Below are positions 5,247-42,162 of a stretch of DNA of 48,923 nt, piece after piece. Each line of letters begins with the position of its first letter. The stretch's first letter is position 1. The notes beneath the pieces were generated by a model, which was given only the letters and a program-made list of their open reading frames with translations, was not told the origin of the DNA and searched no databases. The DNA is from Clostridia bacterium (GTDB lineage Bacteria > Bacillota > Clostridia > JAQVDB01): the NCBI GenBank assembly GCA_028698525.1, contig JAQVDB010000005.1, positions 1 to 48,923 of the forward strand. Reading direction: 5' to 3'. Both the position numbers and the translations under genes were made by a program.

Positions 5247-5325
5247 ATAGCTTACTTCCTCCTCTGAGTATACCCCTTTAAATATTTATGCTGGGGGAAT
5301 AGTATATATGTCTTGTCTTTTCTTT

Positions 5326-5871
5326 TTAAAAGTTATTGCCTGGTAAATAATGCCTTGCTAATAGTATGCAATTAATAGTTTTACTATCCATTATCAGGTT
5401 TTGTTCTATCATCTCCATTACTTTATTAAATGGAATTTTTACAACCTCCAAGAATTCATCATCATCAGAATTTGCCCTTCCTTTTTTTAGACCTGTTGCA
5501 ATAAATAAATGAATTACCTCATCTGAAAATCCTGGAGTAGTATAAATACTTGAAAGATTTATCAGTTTTTCGGCGGTTAATCCTGTCTCCTCTTCCAATT
5601 CTCTTTCTGCACATTCTTCTGGAAGCTCATCTTCATCAAGTTTTCCTGCCGGGACCTCCAAAAGTACTCTTTCTATAGGTTTTCTGTATTGCTTTACCAT
5701 TATCAATTCATTTTTATCAGTTAACGGCAAGATAGCTACTGCACCAGGATGGTTAACTATCTCTCTAGTTGATTTTTTACCATCCGGCAATAATACTGTA
5801 TCTACCTTCAGCTTTATGATTTTCCCATCAAATATCTTTTTTGAATCTATTGTTTTCTCATATAGTTCCAT
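5326..5871 (-). CDS. nudF: ADP-ribose pyrophosphatase (Nudix hydrolase)
   Basis: Hydrolyses ADP-ribose to AMP and ribose 5-phosphate, limiting spontaneous protein ADP-ribosylation. The 181-aa product contains a perfect Nudix box GX5EX7REUXEEXGU at residues 76-98, starting GKLDEDE and ending EEETGL. Upstream of it are the strand pair and the HPGAVAILPL substrate-side segment typical of the ADPRase subgroup, with family proline-rich IPF near the C terminus. It begins 25 nt after the DUF3866 gene stop and so is probably co-transcribed with it. The gap of 79 nt to spoIIM downstream could hold a separate promoter. Substrate assignment within Nudix proteins from sequence alone is approximate. Confidence 0.9.
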   Translation of the reverse strand: MELYEKTIDSKKIFDGKIIKLKVDTVLLPDGKKSTREIVNHPGAVAILPLTDKNELIMVKQYRKPIERVLLEVPAGKLDEDELPEECAERELEEETGLTAEKLINLSSIYTTPGFSDEVIHLFIATGLKKGRANSDDDEFLEVVKIPFNKVMEMIEQNLIMDSKTINCILLARHYLPGNNF

Positions 5872-5896
5872 TTGTTCGCCCCCTATTCAATGTTCC

Positions 5897-6970
5897 TTAT
5901 ATTATATCACTTATCAGCCGAGCCATACTGCCTGCAGACATAAAAAATTCGGGCTCTTGGTTAAAATTTCGCCCCATAGTAGTTACTTCTAGCTCGAATG
6001 ATTTTAGTGCATTCTTTACTATACTTCCGTCTCGAAAAATAATGTTATGTTTTTTATGAATAGCATATTTTTTGATTTGATTTAAAATATAATTCATTTT
6101 TTCTTTTTTCATAAGTGGGAAACATACCGTTGATGGATTGATGCATAGCTCATAAAGTACTATTATTGAATGGTGGCTGATCCCTAAATGGCGTATCCTT
6201 GAATCTGAAAAGCCTATTCTAGGAATTGTAAATGTATTCCCTCCTATAGCAGTGGCTGCATCAATGATTATTGCTTGTTCTACAGCTGTATGTCCATATC
6301 TAGTATTACTTCCTACTATACCCGGTCCCATAGCAATAATAGTGACATCTGCACTGGCTATATATTTTGCAGCTATCAATGCAGTATAGATATTAATAGT
6401 TTCAAAATCGCCGCCAAATGCATTGCCATAGGTTATAGTATGATCAATCAATCCCTTACTTTTAAGTTGTCTTACAGTATTGCTAAAGCTCAATGGTAAG
6501 CATCCACCTTCCGTCATAATATATGATATCTTTACATTCATCCCCTTTATGTATTTCAAGGCTGCAGCAAAAGGTGCAATACTGCTATGAAGTGGGGCTA
6601 TTATACAGGGCATCTTGTTTAGAGATTTAAACTTATTAAAAATATCATTGTACTGATGGTTTTTTTCTTCTACAGTTAAACAGCTAAATTGTATGGGAGT
6701 ATATCGCATCTTCATTATATGACCATCATATCTCTGTTTTATCATATTTGTTGATTGGCCATTTAATACAAAATCGTAGCCGCCTGTTCCCAACCCCAAT
6801 GATACAGCCGTATTGTTTAAAAATACTTTTTCATTTTTTTCTAGTCTACCTGTAATATTGACATAATTTATAGCTTTATTGGTGCTGCCTTCAACATCCA
6901 CTAGTATTACTTGGATATTATCATGTTCAGTCATTATCTCTTTTACAATCCCTTGTTTTATAACTATCAT
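5897..6970 (-). CDS. DUF3866 family protein, function unknown
   Basis: A 357-aa protein of a family conserved in clostridia and actinobacteria without a known function. It is soluble by composition, with no signal peptide or transmembrane helix. The N-terminal third (about 1-90) looks like a small beta domain (DVEGSTNKAINYVNITGRL, LGLGTGGYDFVL). The middle is alpha/beta with glycine-rich turns that could bind a nucleotide or phosphate (TYGNAFGGDFE, MGPGIVGSNTRYGHTA, AATAIGG). A HLGISHH motif near residue 265 could bind metal. It is directly upstream of nudF, a linkage often seen for this family, which hints at a role with nucleotide-sugar or NAD-derived metabolites. That is inference only. 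Confidence 0.85.
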   Translation of the reverse strand: MIVIKQGIVKEIMTEHDNIQVILVDVEGSTNKAINYVNITGRLEKNEKVFLNNTAVSLGLGTGGYDFVLNGQSTNMIKQRYDGHIMKMRYTPIQFSCLTVEEKNHQYNDIFNKFKSLNKMPCIIAPLHSSIAPFAAALKYIKGMNVKISYIMTEGGCLPLSFSNTVRQLKSKGLIDHTITYGNAFGGDFETINIYTALIAAKYIASADVTIIAMGPGIVGSNTRYGHTAVEQAIIIDAATAIGGNTFTIPRIGFSDSRIRHLGISHHSIIVLYELCINPSTVCFPLMKKEKMNYILNQIKKYAIHKKHNIIFRDGSIVKNALKSFELEVTTMGRNFNQEPEFFMSAGSMARLISDII

Positions 6971-13807: not shown

Positions 13808-13875
13808 AATGGTTAAATAATCCTCCCACTAGATATGTTTTTTTACTATTTTTTATAAATTTGTTCAATAAAATT

Positions 13876-15183
13876 TTAACTTGCCATTTTATTTTCTGCT
13901 TCTTTCAACATCCACTCAATATATATTCCATAACCCTTGGAAGGATCATTTATAAATACGTGGGTGATTGCGCCTACAATTTTATTATCTTGTATTATTG
14001 GGCTGCCACTCATGCCCTGTACTATGCCTCCCGTTTTTTTAAGCAGCTCTTGATCTACTATCTTGATTACCATACCTTTAGACTGCTGATTGTCCTGTTT
14101 TACAGTTTTAATTATCTCAACATCAAATTCTCTCACACCAGTATCATCAATTGTGCTCAATATCTTGGCTGGACCTTCCTTTACTTCAGATTGAAGCATT
14201 ATTGGAAGTGCTTTAGCATCAAGCTGGTCATAAAATTTACTGTATACACTGCCGTATATGCCATATATCGTGTTCAGTTTTATATCACCTATAGCATCCT
14301 TGCCACCGGAAAAAACCCCCTTTATTTCCCCTGGTTTACCTTTTTCACCTTGTATTATTGAAATAACCTGGGAATTAACTATCTCACCATTCTGTACAGA
14401 CAATATAGAGCCTGTATCCATATCAGTAATTGCATGCCCTAAAGCCCCATAAATATTAGATTTTGGTTCATAAAAAGTTAAAGTACCAACTCCCATGGTA
14501 CTATCTCTCACCCATAACCCTAATCTATATTGCTTGTCATTTGCATCCTTCGCAGGTGTTATGCTGACAAATATTCTTTTCCCTTCACGATTGATACCTA
14601 AATTTATTGGTTTTCCATCCTTTTTATTGATGATATTAGACAAATGGTCTGCATCTTTTACATCTTTTTCTTCCACCTGTTCTATCACGTCTCCCGGTAA
14701 TATTCCTGCTTGTTCTGCAGGATTATATATTTTACCATCTTCAGTTTGAATATCTGATACTCCCACAACAAGCGCACCTTTAGTAAATAATGAAACACCG
14801 ATTGATTGCCCACCTGGAACTAATTTTATCTCAGGTATTACATTTAGCGTTATTCTTTTTAAAGGTATTATGCCAAATATTTTAAACTCAAGGTTTACTT
14901 TTCCTTTAGAAATTGTGCTTAAATTTAATGGTTTGCTTAAATTACAATTGACTTTTTTGGTTTCATCTGGTCCATCATTTATTTTTATTATTCCAGACTT
15001 GTCCGATTCAATGCATACATTTAAGGGCAGGTTAAAATCAAAAGTATGGTGATTCCCTTCTAAAACTTTTATTTCAGAAGGTATTTGTGATATACCTTGA
15101 ATTTGGGGAGAAAAATTTAATGCTACAATAATAATTGATAAAATAACACCAATAATTTTTTTATTGGTATTTTTACTCCACAA
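13876..15183 (-). CDS. spoIVB: SpoIVB serine peptidase
   Basis: Made in the forespore and secreted into the intermembrane space, SpoIVB cleaves SpoIVFA and so triggers release of active sigma-K in the mother cell. The 435-aa protein has an N-terminal signal anchor (about 9-26), a PDZ domain (about 125-205) and a trypsin-like domain. H250 (GALGHAIT), D377 (KIVDQE) and S392 (GMSGSP) form the triad with the same spacings (127 and 15) as B. subtilis H236-D363-S378. The start is a TTG with AGGAG 11 nt upstream. Its presence alongside a split sigK in this window means the whole sigma-K activation logic is represented here. Confidence 0.96.
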   Translation of the reverse strand: MWSKNTNKKIIGVILSIIIVALNFSPQIQGISQIPSEIKVLEGNHHTFDFNLPLNVCIESDKSGIIKINDGPDETKKVNCNLSKPLNLSTISKGKVNLEFKIFGIIPLKRITLNVIPEIKLVPGGQSIGVSLFTKGALVVGVSDIQTEDGKIYNPAEQAGILPGDVIEQVEEKDVKDADHLSNIINKKDGKPINLGINREGKRIFVSITPAKDANDKQYRLGLWVRDSTMGVGTLTFYEPKSNIYGALGHAITDMDTGSILSVQNGEIVNSQVISIIQGEKGKPGEIKGVFSGGKDAIGDIKLNTIYGIYGSVYSKFYDQLDAKALPIMLQSEVKEGPAKILSTIDDTGVREFDVEIIKTVKQDNQQSKGMVIKIVDQELLKKTGGIVQGMSGSPIIQDNKIVGAITHVFINDPSKGYGIYIEWMLKEAENKMAS

Positions 15184-15353: not shown

Positions 15354-17082
15354 AAATTGCTTTTTTTAATTTTTTAGCCGTTTTTAGCATTTCTTGAGCG
15401 TGATTTAACGAAATATCTGTAATATTCTTACCTCCGAGAAGTCTAGCTATTTCTGATACAGTTTGCTTCCCGTCCAATCTGTTGACAACTGTAGATGTAT
15501 CCCCGCCTTCCACTTTTTTTTGAATGAAAAAATGTATATCAGCCATTGCTGCAATAGAAGCAAGATGAGTCACGCATATAACTTGCCTTGTGCGCGAAAT
15601 TTGGGCAATCTTTTCAGCTACCATCTGGCCAGTTCTTCCACTTATGCCTGTATCTATTTCATCAAAAATTAAACTGGGAATATCATCTACTGCCGCCAAT
15701 ACATTTTTTAATGCCAGCATTATCCTAGAAACCTCTCCTCCGGACACAATTTTAGCTAATGGCTTTACATCTTGACCAATATTGGTAGATATCATAAATT
15801 CAACTTTATCGAATCCGTACATGCTAAAATTAATTTCGCTTGGGCTTTGACCCTTATCTTTAGTTGGAGAATGAATATCAACTACAAATTGTGCACTTTG
15901 TAAACCTAAATCTTCAAGCTCATCATTTACAAGCTTTTCTAAATTTTGTGCTGTTTTTTTCCTTCTTTCTGATAACTTGGTACATGAATCAAATAGCTTT
16001 TTGCTAGAGGATTCTAATTGCAAGTTTAACTGTTCTAAACGCAATTCAGCATTTTTATAAAACTGGAGTTCTTCATATATTCTATTTCTATAATTTATTA
16101 TATCTTGAATAGAATTGCCGTACTTTCTCTTCAATCTATTTATAGTATCGATTCTCTGTTCCGCTTCATTTAGTTGTTCAGGATCAAAATCAAGGTTATC
16201 CCTATATTGCCTTATATCTATGGCAATATCCTGTATCTGTAAAAGAATACTATTTAAATCTTGGTAAGTCATATTAAGACTATCATCTATTCCTACCAAT
16301 TCTTGAATATCGGTGACTATATGGGATAGGATATCGATCACTGCCGGTTTTATCCCTTCTCCATTGTACAAAATAGTGTATGCTTTATTCAATTTTTCAA
16401 TCATTTTTTGACTGTTTTTCATAATCTTGTATTGTTGCATCAACTCTTCTTCTTGGTCTGCTTGCAAATTTACCCTATCAATCTCTTCTATCTGATATAT
16501 TAAAAAATCAATCTTTTTTTCCAGTTCACTATCATCTTTTTTAAGATCAGCAATCTTATCCTTTATAGCTTTCCATTCAATATAATTTTGCTTAACTTCT
16601 TTTTTTATGTGTTCTGATTGTTTACCGCTCAAACTATCCAATAAATGAATGTGATTGCTGGAATGTAAAAGTGATTGATGTTCATGTTGTCCGTGTATAT
16701 CTATCAGGTAAGAACTTATTTCTTTTAACATGCTTAATGTAACCGGTCTTCCATTTATTCTGCATATATTTCTATCATTGGCGTTTATCTCCCTTGTAAG
16801 GACCAAAGTTTCATCAATATTTTCATTTAATCCAAATGAGTCCAATGCTTGGCTTACTTTGTTATTATATTTTATGTCAAAAAGAGCCTCCACTATACAA
16901 TTGGTTTCATTTTTTTTAATAAGGTCCCTATTAGCTCTTCCACCAAGGGCCAGATTAACAGCATCTATTATTATTGATTTCCCGGCACCTGTTTCTCCCG
17001 TTAACACATTGAAACCTTCATCAAATGTAATACTTAAAGAATCAATCAAAGCAAAGTTTTTGATATTCAATTCACGGAGCAT
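15352..17082 (-). CDS. recN: DNA repair protein RecN
   Basis: SMC-like ATPase that gathers double-strand break ends early in recombinational repair. The product of about 576 aa has the Walker A motif TGETGAGKS at 28-36, long coiled-coil arms (about 160-370) with a short hinge, the ABC signature VSGGEVSR near 455, and Walker B LIFDEIDTGISG near 475. GGGGG precedes ATGAATATG. The second ATG (17082) has a 6-nt spacing and gives the usual MLRELNIKNFALI start. It follows argR by 24 nt, the standard argR-recN order in Firmicutes. A terminator overlapping its stop separates it from spoIVB, which therefore needs its own (forespore) promoter. Confidence 0.96.
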   Translation of the reverse strand: MLRELNIKNFALIDSLSITFDEGFNVLTGETGAGKSIIIDAVNLALGGRANRDLIKKNETNCIVEALFDIKYNNKVSQALDSFGLNENIDETLVLTREINANDRNICRINGRPVTLSMLKEISSYLIDIHGQHEHQSLLHSSNHIHLLDSLSGKQSEHIKKEVKQNYIEWKAIKDKIADLKKDDSELEKKIDFLIYQIEEIDRVNLQADQEEELMQQYKIMKNSQKMIEKLNKAYTILYNGEGIKPAVIDILSHIVTDIQELVGIDDSLNMTYQDLNSILLQIQDIAIDIRQYRDNLDFDPEQLNEAEQRIDTINRLKRKYGNSIQDIINYRNRIYEELQFYKNAELRLEQLNLQLESSSKKLFDSCTKLSERRKKTAQNLEKLVNDELEDLGLQSAQFVVDIHSPTKDKGQSPSEINFSMYGFDKVEFMISTNIGQDVKPLAKIVSGGEVSRIMLALKNVLAAVDDIPSLIFDEIDTGISGRTGQMVAEKIAQISRTRQVICVTHLASIAAMADIHFFIQKKVEGGDTSTVVNRLDGKQTVSEIARLLGGKNITDISLNHAQEMLKTAKKLKKAI

Positions 17083-17106
17083 ATTCATCCCCCATTAAAA
17101 ATTCGA

Positions 17107-18517: not shown

Positions 18518-19342
18518 TTAATTCAAAACATCATGTGAGCTATCTACTATTATATCAATTTTTCCTTCGATCATGCTATATTCTGTTTTATTATTGGCTG
18601 AGTCATTAGATAAATATATCAAATATTCGATATTGCCCTTTGGCCCTTTTATAGGAGAGAATCCGATATCCATTATACATAATTTAGAATTAATTGAAAA
18701 TTGAATAATATCATTTATTACTTGTTTATGAGCTACAGGATCCCTTACAACTCCATTTTTCCCTACTTTTTCTTTTCCAACCTCGAATTGCGGTTTTATA
18801 AGACAAACCATTTTCCCTTGATCATTAAGAAGATTTTTCACAACTGGAATTACTAATTTCAGTGAAATAAAAGAAACATCGATGGAAGCAAAGTCACATA
18901 ATACTCCTATATCAGCTGGAACTACATTTCGTATATTTGTACGTTCCATACACACAACTCTTGGGTCATTTCTAAGGCTCCAATCAAATTGTCCATACCC
19001 AACATCTATTGAATATACGCGCGATGCCCCTTTTTTGAGCATGCAGTCTGTAAATCCTCCGGTAGAAGCACCTACATCAATGCATATTTTGCCATTTAAA
19101 TCTATATCAAATTCATTTATTGCCTTTTCAAGTTTTAAGCCTCCACGACTAACAAATGGAATATCGTTCCCCTTAATGACTATTTTGTCCATATCACATA
19201 TACATATATTCGTCCCAGGTTTATCCACCAACTCATTGTTGACATAGACTTGACCAGCCATTATTAAGCGTTTTGCTCGATCCCTGCTCTTAGCTAATCC
19301 TTTTTCCACAAGTACTTTATCTAGCCTGCTTTTTTTGCTCAT
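18518..19342 (-). CDS. tlyA: TlyA family rRNA (cytidine-2'-O)-methyltransferase
   Basis: S-adenosylmethionine-dependent ribosomal RNA methyltransferase; mycobacterial TlyA methylates 16S and 23S rRNA and creates the capreomycin target. The 274-aa product has an N-terminal S4 RNA-binding domain (about 5-65, RLDKVLVEKGLAKSRDRAKR) and a FtsJ-like Rossmann domain with the SAM motif CIDVGASTGGFTD at 87-99 and LIKPQFEVGKEKVGKNGVVRD near 200. It lies downstream of oapA. In many OLE-containing genomes dxs sits between oapA and tlyA, but here it is absent and the gap is only 39 nt. Confidence 0.95.
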   Translation of the reverse strand: MSKKSRLDKVLVEKGLAKSRDRAKRLIMAGQVYVNNELVDKPGTNICICDMDKIVIKGNDIPFVSRGGLKLEKAINEFDIDLNGKICIDVGASTGGFTDCMLKKGASRVYSIDVGYGQFDWSLRNDPRVVCMERTNIRNVVPADIGVLCDFASIDVSFISLKLVIPVVKNLLNDQGKMVCLIKPQFEVGKEKVGKNGVVRDPVAHKQVINDIIQFSINSKLCIMDIGFSPIKGPKGNIEYLIYLSNDSANNKTEYSMIEGKIDIIVDSSHDVLN

Positions 19343-19381
19343 TTTTTCACCTAATTTTTCTTTTTTCGATTTTAATATAAC

Positions 19382-19963
19382 TCAGTTTTCTTTTCTAAAG
19401 ATTCTCCTTATTATATATATCATATACGCAACAGAGTAAACTATCTTACCTGAATTTTTAATTGCAAAATTTTTGCCAAAGGCTTTTCCCCCAACTGTCA
19501 ATGAAGCAGCAATTGAAGTAAGCAATATGCTGATGAAAGTTGTATGTAAATCTGGATTTTCCAGCAATATTTTATAGACTATTGTGGCACTAGCAGCTCC
19601 ACTTACAATTCCGCAAATATCTCCTATTACATCGTTACAAAAGTTTGAAACACGATCTGCTTTTTTTATCATGTTAACTGCATGTTTAGCCCCCGGCACT
19701 TTTTTTGAGCACATTGAATGAAATGGGGTTTGATCTGCCGCAGTTACAGCTGTACCTATAATATCGAAAATTATTCCGATTAATATTATCACAAGAAGCA
19801 ATATTATAGCAAAAACTAAGTTTATAGCCTTCATAAGTGATTCGGACAAAATACTCAACAAAAACGCAAGTATAAATGTCCACATAGAAATAGTCAAAGC
19901 CCAACGTATTTTAGACTTTTTATCATTGGACTTTTTACCATTTTGGTTCTTGTTTGGCTTCAA
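19382..19963 (-). CDS. oapA: OLE-associated protein A, CorB-like membrane protein
   Basis: A 193-aa membrane protein with a basic N terminus (KPNKNQNGKKSNDKKSK), three to four transmembrane segments (about 24-42, 48-72, 110-135 and 146-165) and the conserved loop AADQTPFHSMCSKKVPGAK, then DRVSNFCNDVIGDICGIVSG. It resembles the membrane domain of CorB/MpfA-type magnesium transporters without CBS domains. OapA proteins bind OLE RNA at the membrane and are encoded immediately after it, as here. The open frame extends 50 codons further up, but those codons lie in the RNA's 3' end. The TTG at 19963, 7 nt after GGAGG, is the credible start. Confidence 0.9.
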   Translation of the reverse strand: MKPNKNQNGKKSNDKKSKIRWALTISMWTFILAFLLSILSESLMKAINLVFAIILLLVIILIGIIFDIIGTAVTAADQTPFHSMCSKKVPGAKHAVNMIKKADRVSNFCNDVIGDICGIVSGAASATIVYKILLENPDLHTTFISILLTSIAASLTVGGKAFGKNFAIKNSGKIVYSVAYMIYIIRRIFRKEN

Positions 19964-19979
19964 CAGATTGCCTCCAAAT

Positions 19980-20600
19980 TGAATGATAACAAAGGATGGT
20001 AATACATATGGTAAAACTTGCGGCTTAGGTCTAGTAGGATTTCCCAAACGAATATTGATATGTCGCCATATCAACGGTTTCCCTTTAAATCCGTTTCTAC
20101 TGTGTTGCCACAAAGTAGGACTAGATTACCACTAAGGCCACACTACAATCCCATATATATTTCAGCATGAACAGTCTAGGAGATTTCCTCAACAGCGCCA
20201 AATTTCTCTAGTCTCTTTTGCAGAGAAGGTTTCAAGAACAATAATCCAATTAACACGGGCCCTGCGTAATTGGATGCGATCTTTCTATCCACCCACTCCA
20301 CTCAAGACAGGCTACTCTACAAGTGCTTTTGTAGAGTTCCCTGAAAGTATTGCAATAAAAATAAGGAAGCACTTCTATACATACTTCCAGGTCTCCACGG
20401 AAGCTGGGTCAACGCCCACATGCCCTTGTGGATCGCCCTTCTTCCTTAACTCCCACATCCAACCCCTGACTGGGCGTCAGAAGCCAGACCCAGGAACTTC
20501 ATCGATATGCCATTGACGGATTTTTAGCCCCGCCTTCAAGAAAAATATTGCTGACTAGAATACTGCACCATCCTTTGTTTTATTAATTATTATACATGCA
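19980..20600 (-). ncRNA. ole: OLE (ornate, large, extremophilic) RNA
   Basis: A region of about 620 nt without a credible protein gene and with higher G+C than the gaps around it. It contains many stable hairpins: ATCCAATTA/TAATTGGAT (20244-20275), ACTCTACAA/TTGTAGAGT (20314-20337), CTTCC/GGAAG (20384-20403) and a CTGGG/CCCAG stem (20470-20493). It lies between the ispA-DUF212 pair and oapA, followed by tlyA, argR and recN. This is the operon position described for OLE RNA in Bacillus halodurans and relatives, and the length matches the roughly 600-nt class. OLE forms a membrane ribonucleoprotein with OapA that affects alcohol, cold and magnesium tolerance. The 5' end is placed from the promoter; the 3' end is approximate. 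Confidence 0.88.
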
Positions 20601-20606
20601 GAAAAC

Positions 20607-20635
20607 ATTATAGCATATGATATTTCAATAATCAA
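20607..20635 (-). promoter_or_regulatory. Promoter of the OLE RNA
   Basis: TTGATT (20630-20635), a 17-nt spacer and a perfect TATAAT (20607-20612) on the minus strand form one of the best sigma-A promoters in the window. It begins 3 nt past the DUF212 stop codon, and the expected start is near 20600, where the structured region begins. OLE and oapA can thus be transcribed apart from the upstream genes. Confidence 0.78.
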
Positions 20636-20637
20636 TA

Positions 20638-21081
20638 TCATAAAAATATATTAGAAACTAAAATTCCTACTGCAGCACCACCTATCACTTCAAAAGGCGT
20701 GTGACCCAGTAGTTCCTTCAACTTTTCTTCGTTTAGGACTCGATTGATTTGTATTTCCTTAACAATGCTATTCAAAATTTTAGCCTGTTTTCCCGCTGCC
20801 CTTCTTATCCCTGCAGCGTCATACATTACTATCATAGAAAAAACCACTGAAATAGCAAACAAGTAAGAATCCCAACCATATTCCTTTCCCACAGCAACTG
20901 CTAAAGCAGTGACAAACGCCGAGTGGGAACTAGGCATGCCGCCAGTGCTTACAAAAAGCTCAAAATTAAACTTTCTAGTCATGATCAAAGTTATCAATAC
21001 TTTTGATGTTTGAGCAATGAACCATGCAAGGATGGATATGCCTAAAGCTTTATTCGAGGCGATCTGATTTATAAAATCCAA
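20638..21081 (-). CDS. DUF212 divergent PAP2-like membrane phosphatase
   Basis: A protein of about 147 aa with four hydrophobic segments and the acid-phosphatase-like motifs GGMPSSHSA (near 48), YDAAGIRRAAGKQA (near 88) and LGHTPFEV (near 125). These match the divergent PAP2 family, thought to dephosphorylate lipid pyrophosphates or phosphates, though no substrate is established. The position right after ispA (geranyl or farnesyl diphosphate synthase) fits a prenyl-phosphate substrate. The longest frame starts inside ispA with TTG at 21114. A second TTG at 21081, 8 nt after GAGGAGG, is better placed and starts a normal N terminus. It directly precedes the OLE promoter. Confidence 0.86.
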   Translation of the reverse strand: MDFINQIASNKALGISILAWFIAQTSKVLITLIMTRKFNFELFVSTGGMPSSHSAFVTALAVAVGKEYGWDSYLFAISVVFSMIVMYDAAGIRRAAGKQAKILNSIVKEIQINRVLNEEKLKELLGHTPFEVIGGAAVGILVSNIFL

Positions 21082-21094
21082 CCACTTGCCCTCC

Positions 21095-21979
21095 TCACCT
21101 GTCTCTCTTTCCAATATATATTGCTAATTGTTGGAGAAATTCAGCCGATTCTCCAAATATTTTAAGTGAATCAACTGCTTCACTAGTCAATGAATCTAGA
21201 ACTTTTTTTGATTCATCTATGCCAAACAAAGATGGATAAGTAGATTTGTTTTTCTTTGCATCGCTGCCTGTTTTTTTGCCCATTATGTTTTCATCACCTA
21301 TTATATCCAATAAATCGTCTTTTATCTGAAATGCGAGACCTATATTATGAGCATATTTCTCTAGAGCCATCCTCTGTTCATGTTCAGCATTCCCCATTAT
21401 AGCGCCCGTTATAACACTTGCCCTTATAAGAGCACCGGTCTTATGAGTATGAATATACCTTAATACATCACTTGAAATATTTTTACCCTCGTATATCACA
21501 TCGGCAACCTGACCACCTAGCATTCCATCCAATCCTGCTGAAGCCGTGATCTCTCTTATAGCCCTGATATATGTAGCTGCGCTATCAAAATTTATACAAC
21601 TTAACATGGTTTCAAAAGCATGAGTCAAAAGAGCATCTCCTGCCAATATTGCCATGGCTTCTCCAAACACCTTGTGATTTGTAAGCTTTCCGCGCCTGTA
21701 ATCATCATTATCCATAGCAGGCAAATCGTCATGTATCAAAGAATAGCAATGAATATACTCAATTGAACATGCTAAAGGTATTATCCCTTGTATATCATCT
21801 CTAAACAGCTCATATGTACTGGCCATGAGGATGGGTCTTAATCTCTTGCCTCCAGATAGTACACTATATCTCATCGCATCTTCTATAACACCTATGTTTT
21901 CTTTTCCGGATGGAAGATATTCATCTAAATATTTATCAAACATTCGTTTTTTCTCATTGAAGGCATTTTTAAATTGCAA
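21095..21979 (-). CDS. ispA: Polyprenyl synthetase, geranyl/farnesyl diphosphate synthase
   Basis: Condenses isopentenyl diphosphate with allylic diphosphates to geranyl or farnesyl diphosphate, the precursor of undecaprenyl carriers and quinones. The 294-aa all-helical enzyme has the first aspartate-rich motif DDLPAMDNDDYRRG at 84-97 and the second KDDLLDIIGD near 218, plus GGKRLRP near 43 and the C-terminal family region. The start is TTG, 7 nt after AAGGAGG, which overlaps the end of xseB. The order xseA-xseB-ispA is the standard Firmicute arrangement. In OLE-bearing genomes this gene is the usual upstream neighbour of the RNA. Confidence 0.95.
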   Translation of the reverse strand: MQFKNAFNEKKRMFDKYLDEYLPSGKENIGVIEDAMRYSVLSGGKRLRPILMASTYELFRDDIQGIIPLACSIEYIHCYSLIHDDLPAMDNDDYRRGKLTNHKVFGEAMAILAGDALLTHAFETMLSCINFDSAATYIRAIREITASAGLDGMLGGQVADVIYEGKNISSDVLRYIHTHKTGALIRASVITGAIMGNAEHEQRMALEKYAHNIGLAFQIKDDLLDIIGDENIMGKKTGSDAKKNKSTYPSLFGIDESKKVLDSLTSEAVDSLKIFGESAEFLQQLAIYIGKRDR

Positions 21980-25990: not shown

Positions 25991-26596
25991 TTACCTTTTC
26001 TCGATTATCTTTATCTGGGGTATCTCAAAATCTGTCTCGTTTATTACTATATTTTGTATCTGGGCAACTTTATCATCTGTCAGATTTTGCTCAGATACAA
26101 TAATATTTATCGATTCGTCATGAATCATAGCCACAGCATCATCAAATCCTTGTGCTTTTAGCAAATTCTCTACCGTCATTTCCTGTTCTGTCCTTTCTAC
26201 AATATTCATAATCTTCTGTTGTGCTTCCTTTATAGTATCCTGACTACTGTTTTCATCCTCCACAATCCCTTTCAATAAGTCCACTTCTTCACTTCTAGTT
26301 TGATCTCTTTCTAACCTATATTCTACGAAAAAATTCATATTAGATTGTGAGGTGGTAATTTCTGTATCAGTATCAGTATCAACATCAACAAAATCGTCCT
26401 TTATATTAACTTTCCCTTCAACATCTTTTTGTTCCTGTTTTCCCTGGTTTTCCTGATCAACTTCTTGGTCCACCTGCCCCTCTGCCGCTTTTTGGTCTCC
26501 AAGATGTTGATTATATCTATGATTTATATATCCTGTTATAACTAGAAGTAACACAAGAGACAAAACCAGTATATTTCTTCTTTTAAGTACAATCAT
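25991..26596 (-). CDS. spoIIIAH: Stage III sporulation protein AH
   Basis: Mother-cell component of the SpoIIIA-SpoIIQ channel; its extracellular domain meets forespore SpoIIQ. The 201-aa protein has one N-terminal transmembrane segment (about 9-24), a long low-complexity acidic and glutamine-rich linker (about 35-75), and a C-terminal ring-building domain like YscJ/FliF (about 85-200) with KGIVEDENSSQDTIKEAQ and VENLLKAQGFDDAVAMI. The linker residues are strongly charged (QVDQEVDQENQGKQEQK). It is last in the operon. Clostridia lacking SpoIIQ use SpoIIQ-like peptidases; none is in this window. Confidence 0.94.
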   Translation of the reverse strand: MIVLKRRNILVLSLVLLLVITGYINHRYNQHLGDQKAAEGQVDQEVDQENQGKQEQKDVEGKVNIKDDFVDVDTDTDTEITTSQSNMNFFVEYRLERDQTRSEEVDLLKGIVEDENSSQDTIKEAQQKIMNIVERTEQEMTVENLLKAQGFDDAVAMIHDESINIIVSEQNLTDDKVAQIQNIVINETDFEIPQIKIIEKR

Positions 26597-26609
26597 TTTG
26601 ATATCCCTC

Positions 26610-27191
26610 CTAATTTTTTTTTGTACAAACCTTTACTTTATGGACGGGAATATTGAGTACCGTTTTAACTGCAGTAGTCAACTCCATCTTCACTTTAATA
26701 TCATTTGCACCTTGAGCAACAACTATAACCCCTCTGATTTCCGGTTGTTTTTCTTTTAATATCATGGGAGACGTACTGCCTTGATTTTGTAATTCAGCAG
26801 GCTTTTTATTTGTTTCCCTCTGTTTTGTAGTTTTACTGATACCGGCTTCTCCTTTTTCTTCAGTTGTGTTGTTTGTTTCGCTGCTTTCATATGCAGCAAC
26901 TATTTCCGGTCCCGATTCATAGGTGATCATAACACTTACCTGTCCTGCGCCTTGGATTTGAGATAGGACATTTTCAAGTTTGTCTTCCAGGTAATCACCA
27001 CTTATTTCTTGATGTTCCGTTTTTTTATCATCTGCTGTTATATCCTCTTGTTGATTTTTATCTCCTTCCAAAAAAACACTGGCTGCTATACTTATTATTA
27101 CTCCTACTATCAGTAATGCAATAAGAAACTCTATATTCTTACTTGTCTTGAGCTTTTCTGATATCTGCTTTATTTTATCTGTAAAGTTCAT
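26610..27191 (-). CDS. spoIIIAG: Stage III sporulation protein AG
   Basis: Forms the large 30-fold ring of the mother-cell channel complex in the intermembrane space. The protein of about 193 aa has one transmembrane segment near residue 22-42 and an extracytoplasmic ring domain, starting YLEDKLENVLSQIQGAGQVSVMITYESG and interrupted by a Gln/Glu/Thr-rich insertion (about 110-140), then IRGVIVVAQGANDIKVKMELTTAVKTVL. The ATG after GAGGGG was preferred over a TTG one codon earlier. It ends 14 nt before spoIIIAH. Confidence 0.94.
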   Translation of the reverse strand: MNFTDKIKQISEKLKTSKNIEFLIALLIVGVIISIAASVFLEGDKNQQEDITADDKKTEHQEISGDYLEDKLENVLSQIQGAGQVSVMITYESGPEIVAAYESSETNNTTEEKGEAGISKTTKQRETNKKPAELQNQGSTSPMILKEKQPEIRGVIVVAQGANDIKVKMELTTAVKTVLNIPVHKVKVCTKKN

Positions 27192-27211
27192 CAAATCCCC
27201 TCACAATACTT

Positions 27212-27769
27212 CTATTGTATATATATACTAATGTCTTCCCTGTTTATGTCACATATTTTAGAAACCGATTCTTTAATTTTTTCTTTTTCTGAATTACTTA
27301 AACTCTCTGTTTCTAATCTGTCCCCGTCCTTTGAAGTCATATTACTAAAGTATATATCTACTTTCTCTACCTTACCTTCTTGTTCTGACCACATTAAATC
27401 ATCAAATTTAATTTTTATTTTTATATCCCATTCTCCCACAGTATCTTTTAGTATTGTTTTTATATGTGATTCAAGCTTGTTCTCGTATATTTCAACCGCC
27501 ATATCCTCTTGTACTTGTTCAATATTTCTTATAACAGGCTGGATATTCTCAAAACTTGAATTTTGCTCTATACCTGTTTTTATTATTTGCTCTCCCGCTT
27601 CTGTTCCCAATAATTTTATGATAGGAGTTAATATTATTATTATTAATATGAGTCCTGAAAAAAACTTCACATACTTTCTCATCTCACTGTTTGGGAGCAA
27701 TATATCAACTAATGATGATATTATAATTACTAAAACTATATTGACAATCCAATTTCTCAATAAACTCAT
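27212..27769 (-). CDS. spoIIIAF: Stage III sporulation protein AF
   Basis: A 185-aa protein with two N-terminal transmembrane helices (about 9-26 and 36-53) and an extracytoplasmic ring-building domain (about 80-185) that ends with DINREDISIYI. It is a minor ring component of the SpoIIIA channel needed for sigma-G activity in the engulfed forespore. The PNSEMRKYVKFFSGLILI segment between the helices is typical of the family. It lies 6 nt after spoIIIAE and 20 nt before spoIIIAG. Confidence 0.92.
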   Translation of the reverse strand: MSLLRNWIVNIVLVIIISSLVDILLPNSEMRKYVKFFSGLILIIIILTPIIKLLGTEAGEQIIKTGIEQNSSFENIQPVIRNIEQVQEDMAVEIYENKLESHIKTILKDTVGEWDIKIKIKFDDLMWSEQEGKVEKVDIYFSNMTSKDGDRLETESLSNSEKEKIKESVSKICDINREDISIYIQ

Positions 27770-27775
27770 TTTGAT

Positions 27776-28960
27776 TTACCTCATCATCATCGCAATATTT
27801 CCGGCACCGATTATTATTGTGATTGTAATGAAAAACATCAAAGATACAGATACAACCGTCAAAAATAAAAGTACAGCTGAATTACCTACATCGTTTATGC
27901 ATTTTGATAATTCGTCGACATTTATTGTTTGTACTAAAGCGCTGGTAATTTTATAGATCAATATTATTGATGCGATCTTTATAAGAGGGACGATACATAT
28001 CGATAAAATAATGATCAATCCTACCACTCCGATTGCATTTTTTATTAAGAGGGAACACCCTATTATTGCATCTACAGAATCTGAGAACATTCCTCCTATT
28101 ATGGGTACAAATGTATCTACAGCATATTTTGCAGTTCTTATAGAAATCCCGTCAAATGTTGTACTGGATACACCTTGTATTGTCATTAAGCCTACAAACA
28201 CTGTAAATATAATCCCTAAACTCCATATGCAAATATTATTTAGTAAACTTGCAAGTCTGGAAACGTGAATTCTACTAGATATATTATCAATCAAAAATAA
28301 AACAGCCGAGAAAAAAATCAAAGGAAGAAGGACATTCTTTAAAAAAGTTCCAATAAAGGTAACCATAAGGGCTATTGCAGGATGAAACACCGCAGATGTA
28401 GTAATACCTCCTATAGATGCTAAAAATGCTAATAACAATGGTGTTAACACTTCCATAAAAGATACCATATTTGTTATTGTGTTTTTGCAAATATCTATTG
28501 TCAGAACAAAACTTTTAATTATGATTATAATTATCAATATATAGCTTGCATAAAATGCAATTCTGCTCACATCTGAGTTGATAAACGAACTCTGAAAATT
28601 GTTGAATATTGCACATATAATAGAAAGTACAACTATTTGAAGCATCAGTTTCAGGTTAGTATTTATACCAGCAAAGAAAATATTTAATATATTATTCAAT
28701 ATCGATTTAATGTTAAGCCTATGCCTTCCCGTTGCAATATCTTTTATAAGTTTTCCTATATTTTGAGTCTCATCAATACCAGCTTCATCCAACTTTAACT
28801 GCTGAATATTATCCTGCAAATCACTTATATTCGCCTTTTTAAGTTGATTGTCAATAATATCATCTATCGATATTTTTTCATCTTGACTTGCTGCACATAC
28901 ATCTAAAGAAAAGCTGGTAAATATCAATATGATAAAAATTAAAATAAATGCTTTCTTCAT
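27776..28960 (-). CDS. spoIIIAE: Stage III sporulation protein AE
   Basis: Polytopic core membrane protein of the SpoIIIA export-like channel. The product of about 394 aa has a cleavable signal peptide (KKAFILIFIILIFTSFSL, ending near ASA-like CAAS), a short acidic extracytoplasmic region, and about eight transmembrane segments. It contains the family segments PLLLAFLASIGG and GVSSTTFDGISIRTAKYAVDTFVPIIGGMFSDSVD. The longer frame was rejected because the ATG at 28960 has AAGGTG 6 nt upstream. It lies 15 nt after spoIIIAD. Confidence 0.94.
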   Translation of the reverse strand: MKKAFILIFIILIFTSFSLDVCAASQDEKISIDDIIDNQLKKANISDLQDNIQQLKLDEAGIDETQNIGKLIKDIATGRHRLNIKSILNNILNIFFAGINTNLKLMLQIVVLSIICAIFNNFQSSFINSDVSRIAFYASYILIIIIIIKSFVLTIDICKNTITNMVSFMEVLTPLLLAFLASIGGITTSAVFHPAIALMVTFIGTFLKNVLLPLIFFSAVLFLIDNISSRIHVSRLASLLNNICIWSLGIIFTVFVGLMTIQGVSSTTFDGISIRTAKYAVDTFVPIIGGMFSDSVDAIIGCSLLIKNAIGVVGLIIILSICIVPLIKIASIILIYKITSALVQTINVDELSKCINDVGNSAVLLFLTVVSVSLMFFITITIIIGAGNIAMMMR

Positions 28961-28975
28961 CTGTTTCACCTTCAT

Positions 28976-29362
28976 CTATGGCAATATATCTATTATTAAT
29001 TCCATTAAGGCTATCAATATAGGCACCGCCAAAATCATTACCAATATTTTGCCACCCAATTCAATTTTTGATGCTATTGTATTTTCTCCTGCATCTTTAC
29101 AGATTTGAGAACCAAATTCTGTAATATAGGCTATTCCAACAATCTTTAGCAAGGTAGAAAAATATACAGTATCTATCTCCATCTTCTCCGTTATATTGCT
29201 TAACAATTCTATGACAGATACTATCTTCCCTATCAACAGCACTAATATCAATATACCTGCAGTTATTGAGACAAATATTGAAAACTCTGGTTTATAACTT
29301 TTAAATATGATTGAAATAATAGTCGCTATAATCCCTATACTTATTATTTGTACTATCTCCAT
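28976..29362 (-). CDS. spoIIIAD: Stage III sporulation protein AD
   Basis: A membrane protein of about 128 aa with four hydrophobic segments, including the C-terminal GGKILVMILAVPILIALMELI and the conserved YITEFGSQICKDAGENTIASKIEL. It is thought to form, with AC and AE, the export-gate-like membrane base of the SpoIIIA channel. The ATG at 29362 with AAAGGT upstream is preferred over a TTG six codons earlier. It follows spoIIIAC by 14 nt. Confidence 0.93.
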   Translation of the reverse strand: MEIVQIISIGIIATIISIIFKSYKPEFSIFVSITAGILILVLLIGKIVSVIELLSNITEKMEIDTVYFSTLLKIVGIAYITEFGSQICKDAGENTIASKIELGGKILVMILAVPILIALMELIIDILP

Positions 29363-29376
29363 TCGATTATTACCTT

Positions 29377-29574
29377 TCAATATAATTTAAAAATAGTCTT
29401 TATAGTCTCAAAAAGCTCGCTTATAAGGTTTATTACCATAAACAAAACCACTACAATACCTGCTAAAGTTGTCATCATAGCCATCTCCTCCCTGCCAGCC
29501 CTGATAAGCACCTGATTTAACACAGCTACAAGTATTCCTATAGCTGCTATTTTAAAGATCAGGTCCACATTCAT
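29377..29574 (-). CDS. spoIIIAC: Stage III sporulation protein AC
   Basis: A 65-aa protein with two transmembrane helices (about 5-24 and 33-52) joined by the polar RAGREEMAM turn, of exactly the family size. It pairs with SpoIIIAD in the mother-cell membrane. GGAGG lies before the ATG. The 113 nt separating it from spoIIIAB is the longest gap within the operon and holds only a weak 7-bp inverted repeat (TGAAATC/GATTTCA); I see no gene or terminator there. Confidence 0.93.
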   Translation of the reverse strand: MNVDLIFKIAAIGILVAVLNQVLIRAGREEMAMMTTLAGIVVVLFMVINLISELFETIKTIFKLY

Positions 29575-29687
29575 ATCAATGTCCTCCTTTTTATCTTTAG
29601 GTTTTTATAAATTATTTTTCTTTTAAAGTTCAGCCATGAAATCCAAAATATCTTTGTTTTTACAAGATTTCATCTTTTGGTAAACAC

Positions 29688-30206
29688 TTAAAATAAAACG
29701 ATGGCTATTGCTAATCCGGAAAGAATCCCTATGCTTTTATACATCCTCTCATATTTGTTTTTTTCCTGTTCGGCTGAAACTTCTTGATTATCCAACTGTT
29801 TCTCTATCATTCTTATGCTGTTTATTTGACCATCTATATTTGATCCACCTAGCAACTTTGCAAAATTTTTCAATATCTCTTTGTCATCCTGGTTTAAGAA
29901 AATACCATTTATATCTCTATCCAACGCTTTTTCAAACGCCTCCCCCGGAGTCGTCTCCCTATCATATAACATGACATCATATACATATTTAAATAATGTA
30001 CAAACACGATTATTTCCTTCACTTATATTTTTGAGTACATCAGGTATAGGTATTGTAAAAAAAACTATCTGATTTTCAATATCTCTGATTATAGATTTTA
30101 ACTGTCGAATCTGAACAAGTCTTTCTCTATACTTGTTCGAATATGCAAATCCCAGCATGGTTGTAGATGTAACTATAAGTAAGCTGCTTATGATTTTAAA
30201 AATCAT
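29688..30206 (-). CDS. spoIIIAB: Stage III sporulation protein AB
   Basis: A protein of about 172 aa with N- and C-terminal transmembrane segments and a cytoplasmic helical domain similar to GspF/PilC-type platform proteins. Family features include GFAYSNKYRERLVQIRQLKSI after the first helix and the C-terminal ERMYKSIGILSGLAIAIVLF. The ATG at 30206, 6 nt after GTGGGG, was chosen over one six codons upstream. It begins 23 nt after spoIIIAA and works with that ATPase. Confidence 0.93.
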   Translation of the reverse strand: MIFKIISSLLIVTSTTMLGFAYSNKYRERLVQIRQLKSIIRDIENQIVFFTIPIPDVLKNISEGNNRVCTLFKYVYDVMLYDRETTPGEAFEKALDRDINGIFLNQDDKEILKNFAKLLGGSNIDGQINSIRMIEKQLDNQEVSAEQEKNKYERMYKSIGILSGLAIAIVLF

Positions 30207-30228
30207 ATTCATCCCCACTTTCATCGAC

Positions 30229-31224
30229 TTATCTCAAAGGTTTCCTGTTTATTTTTTTAAAAGTCATGCCATCAAAAATATCTTCTACAGTTCCTACTCC
30301 CAGCGTATTACCTAAAATAATAATTCTTTGAAAAATTTTCTTGTTTATAACTTGGGATAAAACCGGTCTTGATTTAACATCTTCAATATCCATCCCATGC
30401 ACAGTTGTAATAAGTTTAATCCCTGCCACTAATGCTTCTTCTATTGCCGCTATATCTTCTTTTTTACCTATTTCATCAGTCACAATCACATCAGGTGACA
30501 TGGATCTTATCATCATGATTATCCCTTTATCCTTTGGGCAACAATCTAATACATCCGTCCTAATGCCTAATTCAAATTGCATCTTGCCCATATATGTACC
30601 CGCTATCTCTGATCTTTCATCTACAACCCCAATATTCATGCCCGTATTGCTCATCTGTCTAACAATATCCCGAAGTAAGGTAGTTTTTCCGCACCTGGGG
30701 GGTGATATTATCAAAGTATGCATAGGCCTTTTTCTATCATCTAATATATAGTCTATTATTTTATCCGCTACTCCAATTATCTCTCTTGCAATTCTTATGT
30801 TAAGGCCTGAAATGTTCTTGATAGTAACAACCTCTCCCTCATTTACTACCGTTGTTCCGGCAATGCCTACTCTGTATCCGCCTTTTAATGTCAAGTAACC
30901 GTTTTTTATCTCCTCTTGCACTGCATAAATCGAGTTTTGGGTCATTATTTGAACAGCTTTTTGTATATTAAGATAATCCACTATATAGGGATTTCTTTCG
31001 CATATTTGCCCACGGCTATTTACTATATATGACTTGCCTTGATATGTTATCATCAAAGGTTTGCTTGTCCTTAATCTGATTTCCTCAATATTTTTACAAA
31101 TAAAAGGCTCAATATTACAGAGAATATTAGAAATACTTGATGGCAACACTTTCAGTACTATATCCATCCATACAGGATTATCTCTTGTTTGATTCAGTTG
31201 ACTTATGTTTTTATATGCAGACAT
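30229..31224 (-). CDS. spoIIIAA: Stage III sporulation protein AA, ATPase
   Basis: The energy-supplying AAA/secretion-type ATPase of the SpoIIIA-SpoIIQ channel in the mother cell. The product of about 331 aa has an N-terminal domain with EEIRLRTSKPLMI and GGYRVGIAGT, Walker A SPPRCGKTTLL at about 164-174, and Walker B VIVTDEIG near 235. The ATG at 31224 is 10 nt from AAGGAGG; the first ATG of the frame abuts it. It is the first gene of the eight-gene operon. A sigma-E promoter is expected in the 66 nt upstream, but I could not match the consensus convincingly. Confidence 0.95.
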   Translation of the reverse strand: MSAYKNISQLNQTRDNPVWMDIVLKVLPSSISNILCNIEPFICKNIEEIRLRTSKPLMITYQGKSYIVNSRGQICERNPYIVDYLNIQKAVQIMTQNSIYAVQEEIKNGYLTLKGGYRVGIAGTTVVNEGEVVTIKNISGLNIRIAREIIGVADKIIDYILDDRKRPMHTLIISPPRCGKTTLLRDIVRQMSNTGMNIGVVDERSEIAGTYMGKMQFELGIRTDVLDCCPKDKGIIMMIRSMSPDVIVTDEIGKKEDIAAIEEALVAGIKLITTVHGMDIEDVKSRPVLSQVINKKIFQRIIILGNTLGVGTVEDIFDGMTFKKINRKPLR

Positions 31225-31290
31225 AAAAAACATGCCTCCTTTTATATATACTTATTAATATACTCCTGAAAATATTATTATTTTTGCAAT

Positions 31291-35438: not shown

Positions 35439-35990
35439 CTATTGTTTTTGTTCTTTTAATCCGGTAATCTCATATAAACCTAGTTTTGAAGTTATGTTCA
35501 AAATCCCTTCTTCATCTTGGCTGGATATATTTACACTCATCAATATTATCTTTTTTTCATAGTTCTCAACATCATTTATGAATTTATTGAATGTCTCTTG
35601 GTCGGTTTTTAAACTTATATCGATAGGTAGTATTCTATATCCTTCTTTTTCAATATAGTCATTTACACTTATTGAATCAATAGTTATATCATATTTAATC
35701 TCTAACTTTTCAAACAATACAAGCACAGAAGACATATCAACAGGACAAAAATATCCTTGACTTAGTTGTTGGATTTTGGTGTTATAGTTTTTTAACAAAC
35801 TCTCCTGCTCATCTGTTTTTCTTCCGGTTTTACTGTTTTTTTGAACCAGTTGACTGTTTTGTTGGATAGAGACTTTAGCCTCTATTATCTGATCAACTAT
35901 GGGCTTTAGATAAAGTCTAAAATATATTAAAAAAGCTAATAAAACACATGCAATGACAATCAATGTTTTTTCTCTATTAGAAAGCTTCAT
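35439..35990 (-). CDS. pilO: Type IV pilus inner-membrane protein PilO-like
   Basis: A 183-aa bitopic membrane protein: short cytoplasmic N terminus, transmembrane helix at 9-24 (LIVIACVLLAFLIYF), a coiled-coil stretch (about 27-70) and a ferredoxin-like C-terminal domain (about 80-183). That is the PilO layout; sequence similarity in this family is low, so position after PilN carries much of the weight. PilM, PilN and PilO form the alignment complex that couples the pilus motor to the outer machinery. GGAG lies 10 nt before the ATG; the gap from pilN is 6 nt. Confidence 0.85.
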   Translation of the reverse strand: MKLSNREKTLIVIACVLLAFLIYFRLYLKPIVDQIIEAKVSIQQNSQLVQKNSKTGRKTDEQESLLKNYNTKIQQLSQGYFCPVDMSSVLVLFEKLEIKYDITIDSISVNDYIEKEGYRILPIDISLKTDQETFNKFINDVENYEKKIILMSVNISSQDEEGILNITSKLGLYEITGLKEQKQ

Positions 35991-35996
35991 AATGAG

Positions 35997-36542
35997 TCAC
36001 TCCATAACTTTAGCAAAAGTACATTTAATCTCAAAATTATTTTTGTTGCTACTGCCCACATAAACAACATTGCTTAATTCTATATCTTTGAATACATCCA
36101 ATCCGCCAAGATTTATCATGAATTCAGAAATATCTCGTTTGGTGTATGAGCTTCCACTGATTTGCAAATCATTTAAATTATAGCTTATAGTTTCAATATC
36201 AACATCCTCAGGCACCATATCTATCAACATGGGGTATAGTTTAGAAAACACAATCTTTTCTGCTTCCAATCCTTTTAATATTTCAATTAATTCTTCTTTT
36301 TGCTCAAGTTCATCTTGAATATTTTTCCCTTGTTCTATGTTCAAGCCGATCTCATCTAGGTCTTTCTTTATATTATAAGAGCTTTCAATGGTGTTATCCA
36401 ATATCTTTCGAGGTAACCAAATAGCACATATAACTACAACTATTAGAACTACAATTATTATTACTTCAAAAGTAATTCTTTTTCTTTTATCGCTATATTT
36501 ATTAGAGTCATAATATTCATCCAAAAAGTTAAAATCCTTCAA
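35997..36542 (-). CDS. pilN: Type IV pilus assembly protein PilN-like
   Basis: A 181-aa bitopic protein with an acidic cytoplasmic tail (MKDFNFLDEYYD), which in PilN binds PilM, one transmembrane helix (about 25-46), a coiled coil (50-85) and a ferredoxin-like periplasm-side domain. It starts with TTG overlapping the pilM stop (TTGA), with AGGTGG 7 nt upstream, so production is coupled to PilM. The conserved N-terminal N-F-L sequence of PilN is recognisable. Confidence 0.85.
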   Translation of the reverse strand: MKDFNFLDEYYDSNKYSDKRKRITFEVIIIVVLIVVVICAIWLPRKILDNTIESSYNIKKDLDEIGLNIEQGKNIQDELEQKEELIEILKGLEAEKIVFSKLYPMLIDMVPEDVDIETISYNLNDLQISGSSYTKRDISEFMINLGGLDVFKDIELSNVVYVGSSNKNNFEIKCTFAKVME

Positions 36543-37594
36543 CCACTATCCACCTGCCTCACAGTAGCTCCTACTGCTCCACATAGGAAACTTGCATCTT
36601 CTGAAGTTGAGTCAAAAAGCAAAATATTATTTTTAGCTAAATATTGGTTCAACGTCTGGACGTTCAAACCTGAATTGAATTGTATGTATTCATCCATACC
36701 GTCTATGTTGCCTCCCCCTCCTATAAGTATCGCACTCCCAATATCCTTGCCAAAATTTCTAGATTTATAATATTCATTCATCTTAAAAATTTCTTGATTG
36801 AGTATTTGCAATACAGGTTTAACCGACTTTACCATATGGGTGTTATTTATTATATTATCGATGGATAGGTCTAATTTAGATATCATGTTTTTTTCAGCTT
36901 GCTCTTTATCTAAATTCAAATTTTCAGATAACACATCAATCAAAGTTTCTGCCCCCAATTGTATTGTTTGGGAAGCAAAAAAGTTATTGTTAAATGCGGT
37001 AAAATGGGTATGTTTTGCCCCTATATCAATGATAATGACTCCTGTATCAATATCATCTTTTAATATATTTTTAAAAAATTTATATATGGAATTGCAATAT
37101 AAATCAATGCCTTTAATCTTAATCTTTGCTTTAGCTGATGCATTAGACAAACCTTCGATAATTTCAATAGGAACTGCTCCAACGAGGGTTTTAATAATTT
37201 CATTTCCCTGCTGTTGTTGGATACCTAATATTTTATAATCTATAACATAATCATCGACATCTATAGGAAGATATTGATCTGCTTGATATTTAATAGCCTT
37301 CTTTAATTCAGCCTCCGACATATAAGGCATATCTATTTGTCTTGTTATTATATCCTTGCTATCTAAAGTAATGTAAATATCACTTTTTGCAGGCGAGATT
37401 TGTTCAATATACTTTTTGAGCAAGCTGGAGAAAACTGTCATGTTCTCTATCCTGCCATCATTAAAGCAGGTCGAGGGTAAGGGGCTTATCATATATTCTA
37501 AAAGCTTTATTTTGGATTTGTTATAAGACACTTTTACAATTTTTATAAAAGCAGTGCCCAGTTCAATACCTATTCTATTTCTTTTAAAAATCAT
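36539..37594 (-). CDS. pilM: Type IV pilus assembly protein PilM
   Basis: A product of about 351 aa with the actin-like fold: phosphate-1 motif IGIELGTAFIKIV at 8-20, VIIDIGAKHTHFT (phosphate-2) near 180, and adenosine motif SAILIGGGGNIDGM near 285. It is cytoplasmic, binds the PilN tail and forms a ring below the inner-membrane pilus platform. The longest frame would add 29 codons overlapping the preceding minor pilin gene. ATG 37594 follows GGAGG by 7 nt and was chosen. Confidence 0.92.
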   Translation of the reverse strand: MIFKRNRIGIELGTAFIKIVKVSYNKSKIKLLEYMISPLPSTCFNDGRIENMTVFSSLLKKYIEQISPAKSDIYITLDSKDIITRQIDMPYMSEAELKKAIKYQADQYLPIDVDDYVIDYKILGIQQQQGNEIIKTLVGAVPIEIIEGLSNASAKAKIKIKGIDLYCNSIYKFFKNILKDDIDTGVIIIDIGAKHTHFTAFNNNFFASQTIQLGAETLIDVLSENLNLDKEQAEKNMISKLDLSIDNIINNTHMVKSVKPVLQILNQEIFKMNEYYKSRNFGKDIGSAILIGGGGNIDGMDEYIQFNSGLNVQTLNQYLAKNNILLFDSTSEDASFLCGAVGATVRQVDSG

Positions 37595-37619
37595 ATTATT
37601 CCTCCACAATGCCAAAGCT

Positions 37620-38066
37620 TTAGTAGTCAGTATTAAGCTTTTTTTCTTTAAAATATTTTTGAACGAGATCAATATCACCATTCTCTTTGTGAGAAACTTG
37701 AAACCCGACTTCTACTTTCTTTTTTATCTCTCCTACAAATCCAGTTGACTCTAATATCAAAAGCTGTTTGTCTTTATTGTAACTAGCTTCTACCACTGCT
37801 TTTACTTGCTTGGACTTATAATCTTGAAAATCATTATAATTAAATTTATAAGGCAAGATATCTAACAATTCTCTATTTAAATCATGTTTTGCCATACCAG
37901 CACCGGATTCAGCTATATAATACGCATAAAACATAAAATCTTGATTTAACACAGAGTTATAGTTCAGCAGTGACAGGTTTAACAGTGCCATACAAAGAAT
38001 AGAAAGGAGCATCATAACTATAACTACAAGCACTAATGCTGAACCATTAGGTCTTGCAAAATTCAT
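37620..38066 (-). CDS. PilX-like minor pilin/assembly protein
   Basis: A protein of about 148 aa with a short leader (MNFARPNG) and a hydrophobic helix SALVLVVIVMMLLSILCMALL, then FYAYYIAESGAGMAKHDLN, the E-S-G-A motif typical of PilX N-terminal domain proteins. It lacks the F-T-L-I-E processing sequence of ordinary prepilins; cleavage would be after G8 if it occurs. It probably primes pilus assembly with the other minor pilins. ATG 38066 is 6 nt after GGAAGGTG; a GTG three codons earlier is less likely. Confidence 0.8.
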   Translation of the reverse strand: MNFARPNGSALVLVVIVMMLLSILCMALLNLSLLNYNSVLNQDFMFYAYYIAESGAGMAKHDLNRELLDILPYKFNYNDFQDYKSKQVKAVVEASYNKDKQLLILESTGFVGEIKKKVEVGFQVSHKENGDIDLVQKYFKEKKLNTDY

Positions 38067-38079
38067 ATAAAACACCTTC

Positions 38080-38505: not shown

Positions 38506-38520
38506 AACATAACACCTGTT

Positions 38521-38910: not shown

Positions 38911-38911
38911 T

Positions 38912-39370: not shown

Positions 39371-39380
39371 ATACATCCCT

Positions 39381-40931: not shown

Positions 40932-40947
40932 CCCCCTCACCTCCCTT

Positions 40948-42156: not shown

Positions 42157-42162
42157 TTTATA

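Follow-up and report, generated by a model that had tools for sequence, protein, structure and literature searches.

OLE RNA ranks among the largest conserved RNAs of bacteria whose biochemical function is not known, and 2,822 matches to it have been recorded in Bacillota (PMC11332333). In B. halodurans it is a stable, very abundant and membrane-bound RNA of ~630 nt (PMC9723947; PMC12265935), whose gene lies in a large operon and has its own promoter, the transcript being presumably processed (PMC9723947). Work on H. halodurans has described membrane localisation that depends on the protein OapA, and phenotypes under cold, ethanol and Mg2+ stress (PMC12265935, PMC12054373). Others have proposed that OapA is a divalent-ion transporter and that OLE RNA does the job of the CBS/CorC domains of MpfA. 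OLE was found almost always together with OapA, often with OapB and OapC, and seldom with MpfA (Fernando and Breaker 2024, PMC11332333). The same survey described two reduced forms (TANB77 and RF39 types), variant 1 with shortened P7-P9 and a lost P13 OapB site, and variant 2 with lost P7 and P8 (PMC11332333). The cryo-EM structure of the OLE dimer places its bridge B3 at L9.3 (PMC12286853).

In this study, we analyzed a locus of this kind in a contig of a Clostridia bacterium; the whole stretch of 48,923 nucleotides is referred to as the window. The locus is a genuine OLE RNA gene with its oapA, unambiguous but unremarkable as a further instance of the known system, and we consider its identity as an ole-oapA locus and the make-up of the corresponding particle about 95% probable. 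The features on which the comparison rests are as follows.

19980..20587, minus strand: OLE RNA gene, full length (RF01071; cmscan 493.3 bits, covariation over 40 sequences)
19382..19963, minus strand: oapA, encoding a CNNM/CorB-like membrane protein of 193 aa (translation, Pfam, homology, fold)
20638..21114, minus strand: DUF212 (divergent PAP2) gene upstream of OLE (Pfam PF02681, 178.5 bits)
18518..19342, minus strand: tlyA-like gene downstream of oapA (open reading frame; as a query, matched in 72/80 named OapA loci)
20607..20635, minus strand: predicted sigma-A promoter TTGATT-17-TATAAT upstream of OLE (pattern scan)

Between the stop codon of the DUF212 gene (20638) and the likely start of oapA (TTG at 19963) lies a gap of 674 nt (19964-20637), in which no convincing gene of its own was found among the open reading frames of either strand. 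The earlier note had read this gap between a DUF212 gene and a CorB-like gene as OLE RNA, and a search with the OLE covariance model, the check it proposed, bears this out: the Rfam model RF01071 matched 20587-19980 on the minus strand with 493.3 bits (E 7.6e-142), far above the gathering score of 50. The match is complete, covering positions 1-616 of the 616 in the model over 608 nt, and is the sole Rfam match above any gathering score in the whole window (cmscan). An open reading frame at 20113-19382 was considered as a separate gene and rejected, as it is the oapA reading frame continued 5' into the OLE RNA.

The secondary structure of OLE is conserved here with strong covariation support. 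Standard pairs are formed by 140 of the 151 model pairs in the window sequence. Over 40 aligned sequences, 82.9% of the pair cells are standard, compared with 41-47% in controls in which the partner column was displaced by 1-3 positions (slid alignments). The covariation score was 0.454, versus 0.106-0.146 for the slid alignments and a mean of 0.189 for shuffled ones. Changes on both sides were found at 106/151 pairs, with 1019 cells changed on both sides versus 386 in the shuffled alignments; the shuffled control ignores relatedness, while the slid control accounts for it and agrees. Three structural elements can be located.

20257..20262, minus strand: GGGCCC palindrome of the L9.3 apical loop, in agreement with the kissing loop seen in the OLE dimer (folding; alignment)
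20062..20067, minus strand: GGCGAC loop of P13, within the OapB-bound region (present in the window and in relatives)
20314..20391, minus strand: P7 and P8 of the variable J6/7-P8 region, with a long continuous P7 hairpin and a short P8 of 9 bp (folding, relatives)

Folding gave AGGGCCC as the L9.3 apical loop, and GGCC occurs there in 38 of the 40 aligned sequences. In one class relative (L014, OLE RNA at 1500-2047 on the plus strand) the P9.3 arm, which carries the dimer kissing loop, seems to be missing in the alignment; yet that RNA scores 494 bits. Assignment of the window OLE to variant 1 or variant 2 was rejected, as P7, P8 and the P13 GGCGAC loop are all present and the genome has OapB and OapC. 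A terminator-like site at 20388-20365 was likewise not kept as a separate terminator, being part of P7.

The protein encoded downstream most likely begins at TTG 19963, with GGAGG at 19975-19971, seven bases ahead. It matches Pfam CNNM with 29.3 bits, which narrowly exceeds the cut-off of 28.4, and the residues invariant over 13 homologues include FD..G.A, C.D..GD..G..SG and T..GK...K. Sequence search against the PDB returned no match. The predicted model (mean pLDDT 84) was compared by Foldseek, and its five best solved fold matches are the CNNM proteins MtCorB (7m1t) and CorC (7cff), with probabilities of 0.96-1.00, TM scores of 0.42-0.50 and a best E value that is modest at 6.6e-3. OapA resembles the CNNM/CorB/CorC/MpfA Mg2+ transporters in its Pfam match and fold, but differs from them in consisting of the membrane part only, with CBS and CorC_HlyC domains absent, and in being encoded together with an RNA. 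The identification of the 193-aa protein as OapA in the earlier note therefore holds: by Pfam, by fold and by homology to the protein beside OLE in relatives, it is placed with OLE-adjacent homologues and CNNM proteins and not only with unrelated families.

Pairing of the two genes was followed in two sets of genomes. OLE was found in 27 of 60 genomes searched, own genome included, with 286-553 bits, a range in the middle of which the window OLE falls at 493 bits, and in none of 14 control genomes. An OapA homologue adjoins OLE at all 27 loci (own genome plus 26 class relatives). A scan of genome contigs with the single OapA protein found nothing close, whereas a query built from an alignment succeeded, and this OapA profile identified 80 loci in named genomes, the best matches being mostly in Clostridia (Thermosediminibacter, Clostridium and Caloramator). 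The exact OLE 5' motif CAGUAUYCUAGUC was present at 68 of these 80 loci and an Rfam OLE match at 11 of the other 12, giving OLE at 79/80; at the 80th, the contig begins 162 bp before the OapA match. One OLE lies on a secondary replicon, pMM59_01 of Pusillibacter faecalis (NZ_AP023421.1, locus 5298-6534), which was submitted as a plasmid of 504 kb and is classed as conjugative. Its OLE RNA (399.8 bits) is accompanied by oapA, dxs, tlyA, argR and recN.

The gene order in the window is nusB-folD-xseA-xseB-ispA-DUF212-OLE-oapA-tlyA-nadK-argR-recN-spoIVB, and the ispA...tlyA-argR-recN train, pointed out earlier as the recorded OLE context, matches the published neighbourhood. The window resembles the OLE/OapA loci of Halalkalibacterium halodurans and other Bacillota in its full-length RNA, secondary structure and conserved nucleotides, in oapA lying directly downstream within an isoprenoid/tlyA/argR/recN neighbourhood, and in a genome with OapB, OapC and bS21 genes and no MpfA. 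It is unlike them in two points of gene content. A DUF212 gene stands between ispA and OLE, as in 14 of the 80 named loci, and dxs, which is near oapA in 70 of the 80 and as a rule separates oapA from tlyA, is missing between these two genes (window 19342-19382). In the whole genome, DXP_synthase_N gave weak matches only (at most 31 bits), while dxr is present and HMG-CoA synthase was not found; either the assembly has a gap or isoprenoid synthesis would start with an unusual step. Two long frames on the plus strand, 16730-17098 and 13861-14361, lie opposite recN and spoIVB and are probably mirror frames rather than genes.

The same window contains the sporulation genes spo0A, spoIVB and spoIIIAA-AG, in agreement with PMC11332333. 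The organism had been described in advance as a sporulating clostridium; the first part of this description agrees with these genes, while 'clostridium' has to be taken more loosely, the nearest genomes compared sharing only the class. Within the spoIIIA operon (window 25991-31233), SpoIIIAG scored 135 against an NCBI cut-off of 147.7, just below it, and no NCBIfam match was obtained for the protein that stands in the place of SpoIIIAH. Farther along (window 35439-44927), a type IV pilus cluster encodes PilO, PilN, PilM, a prepilin peptidase, pilin-like proteins, T2SSF and two T2SSE ATPases, and is flanked by shikimate pathway genes.

Partner proteins were sought in the rest of the genome. As a lead to OapB we used its place between map and infA, which we take to be the position of ybzG/OapB in the Bacillus gene order, and the protein encoded there was then checked by sequence. 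It matches PDB entry 7k9b, 'OLE-associated protein B' (E 1.6e-6), and resembles archaeal L14e about as closely, so that its identity as OapB is supported by the position. The KOW Pfam model missed this protein in the genome and gave two other KOW-domain matches, from open frames 120 and 173 aa long. OapC/YbxF heads the rpsL-rpsG-fusA string, with YbxF entries 4lck and 3v7e as best PDB matches (2e-13), and a bS21 gene is present. No CNNM-domain protein other than OapA, and no full-length MpfA/CorC, was found in the genome, an absence that is not absolute because the assembly is incomplete (97% complete, 136 contigs); OapA as the only CNNM-domain protein fits the published OLE-MpfA anticorrelation.

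The predicted promoter agrees with the consensus at 10/12 positions and has TG ahead of its second hexamer; taken alone, it is weak evidence (shuffle p 0.14). Sites of at least 10/12 were present in the same region at 19 of 27 OLE loci, compared with 1.3 on average and never more than 5 after shuffling. A promoter of its own for OLE is not new, having already been reported for B. halodurans (PMC9723947). Full-length OLE would probably be transcribed both from this promoter and by transcription that reads through from ispA-DUF212, with OapA translated directly downstream.

The published role is the most likely one here, that of an RNA-protein particle bound to the membrane which acts in the stress response and is connected with Mg2+ homeostasis, and we infer the membrane localisation and the stress role from the published H. 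halodurans work. The RNA would dimerise, OapA would keep it at the membrane, and OapB would be bound at P13 and both OapC and bS21 at P5/P6, giving a stress-responsive particle. Homeostasis of Mg2+ or other divalent ions, together with adaptation to stress and sporulation, is the likeliest function. OapA would provide a CNNM-type ion-handling membrane part, with the RNA replacing the regulatory domains of MpfA-type transporters; the locus fits a model in which OapA would transport ions under the control of OLE RNA, and we give this an even chance. A rival on mechanism, which leaves identity untouched, is that OLE RNA itself has enzymatic activity, as a ribozyme or in signalling (c-di-AMP synthesis, for instance), with OapA as a mere anchor. 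This was proposed by its authors as reported in PMC11332333, and is favoured by the size, sequence conservation and complexity of the RNA; no such activity is reported in the OLE papers cited here and nothing in the locus bears on it, and we regard it as unlikely.

The RNA itself departs from known OLE in the J6/7-P8 region, variation of which is already known (PMC12265935). Its P7 is a continuous hairpin without the usual internal UUGUG/UACGA-like motif, also absent from ten others of the 40 sequences, its P8 is short, and J7/8 reads AACUCU, versus a near-invariant AACCUG elsewhere (AACCU followed by G, A or U in 95 of 98 anchored loci). These departures, like the missing dxs, are small, and none removes the RNA from the family. 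They could mark a lineage with a rebuilt J6/7-P8, in which the continuous P7 and the exchange of AACCUG for AACUCU make one of the contacts of the cytoplasmic domain, within the dimer or to a protein, differ from that in the standard particle; we hold this to be unlikely. The same changes in J7/8 and P7 might be taken as signs of a decaying remnant that no longer works, which is very improbable given that the P7/P8 fold (-31.4 kcal/mol, z -4.9) is better than all 200 shuffles, that the score is mid-range among relatives, that the P7 motif is dispensed with in other sequences as well, and that OapA is intact with all partners present. Equally improbable is that the structured stretch serves chiefly in cis, as a riboswitch- or attenuator-like leader that controls oapA translation or transcription, and is no independent RNA: it does stand directly upstream, ~16 nt from the start codon with no terminator between, but the full model match and a structure far beyond that of a leader, the OapB and OapC genes in the genome, and the stable, abundant ~630 nt RNA at the membrane of B. 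halodurans (PMC9723947; PMC12265935) all speak against it.

The locus does not settle the function of OLE. As a full-length OLE RNA gene beside an intact oapA, it belongs to the known system, and each sure member of OLE adds to the comparative record. The genome offers a clean example from nature in which all the known partners occur together and MpfA was not found.
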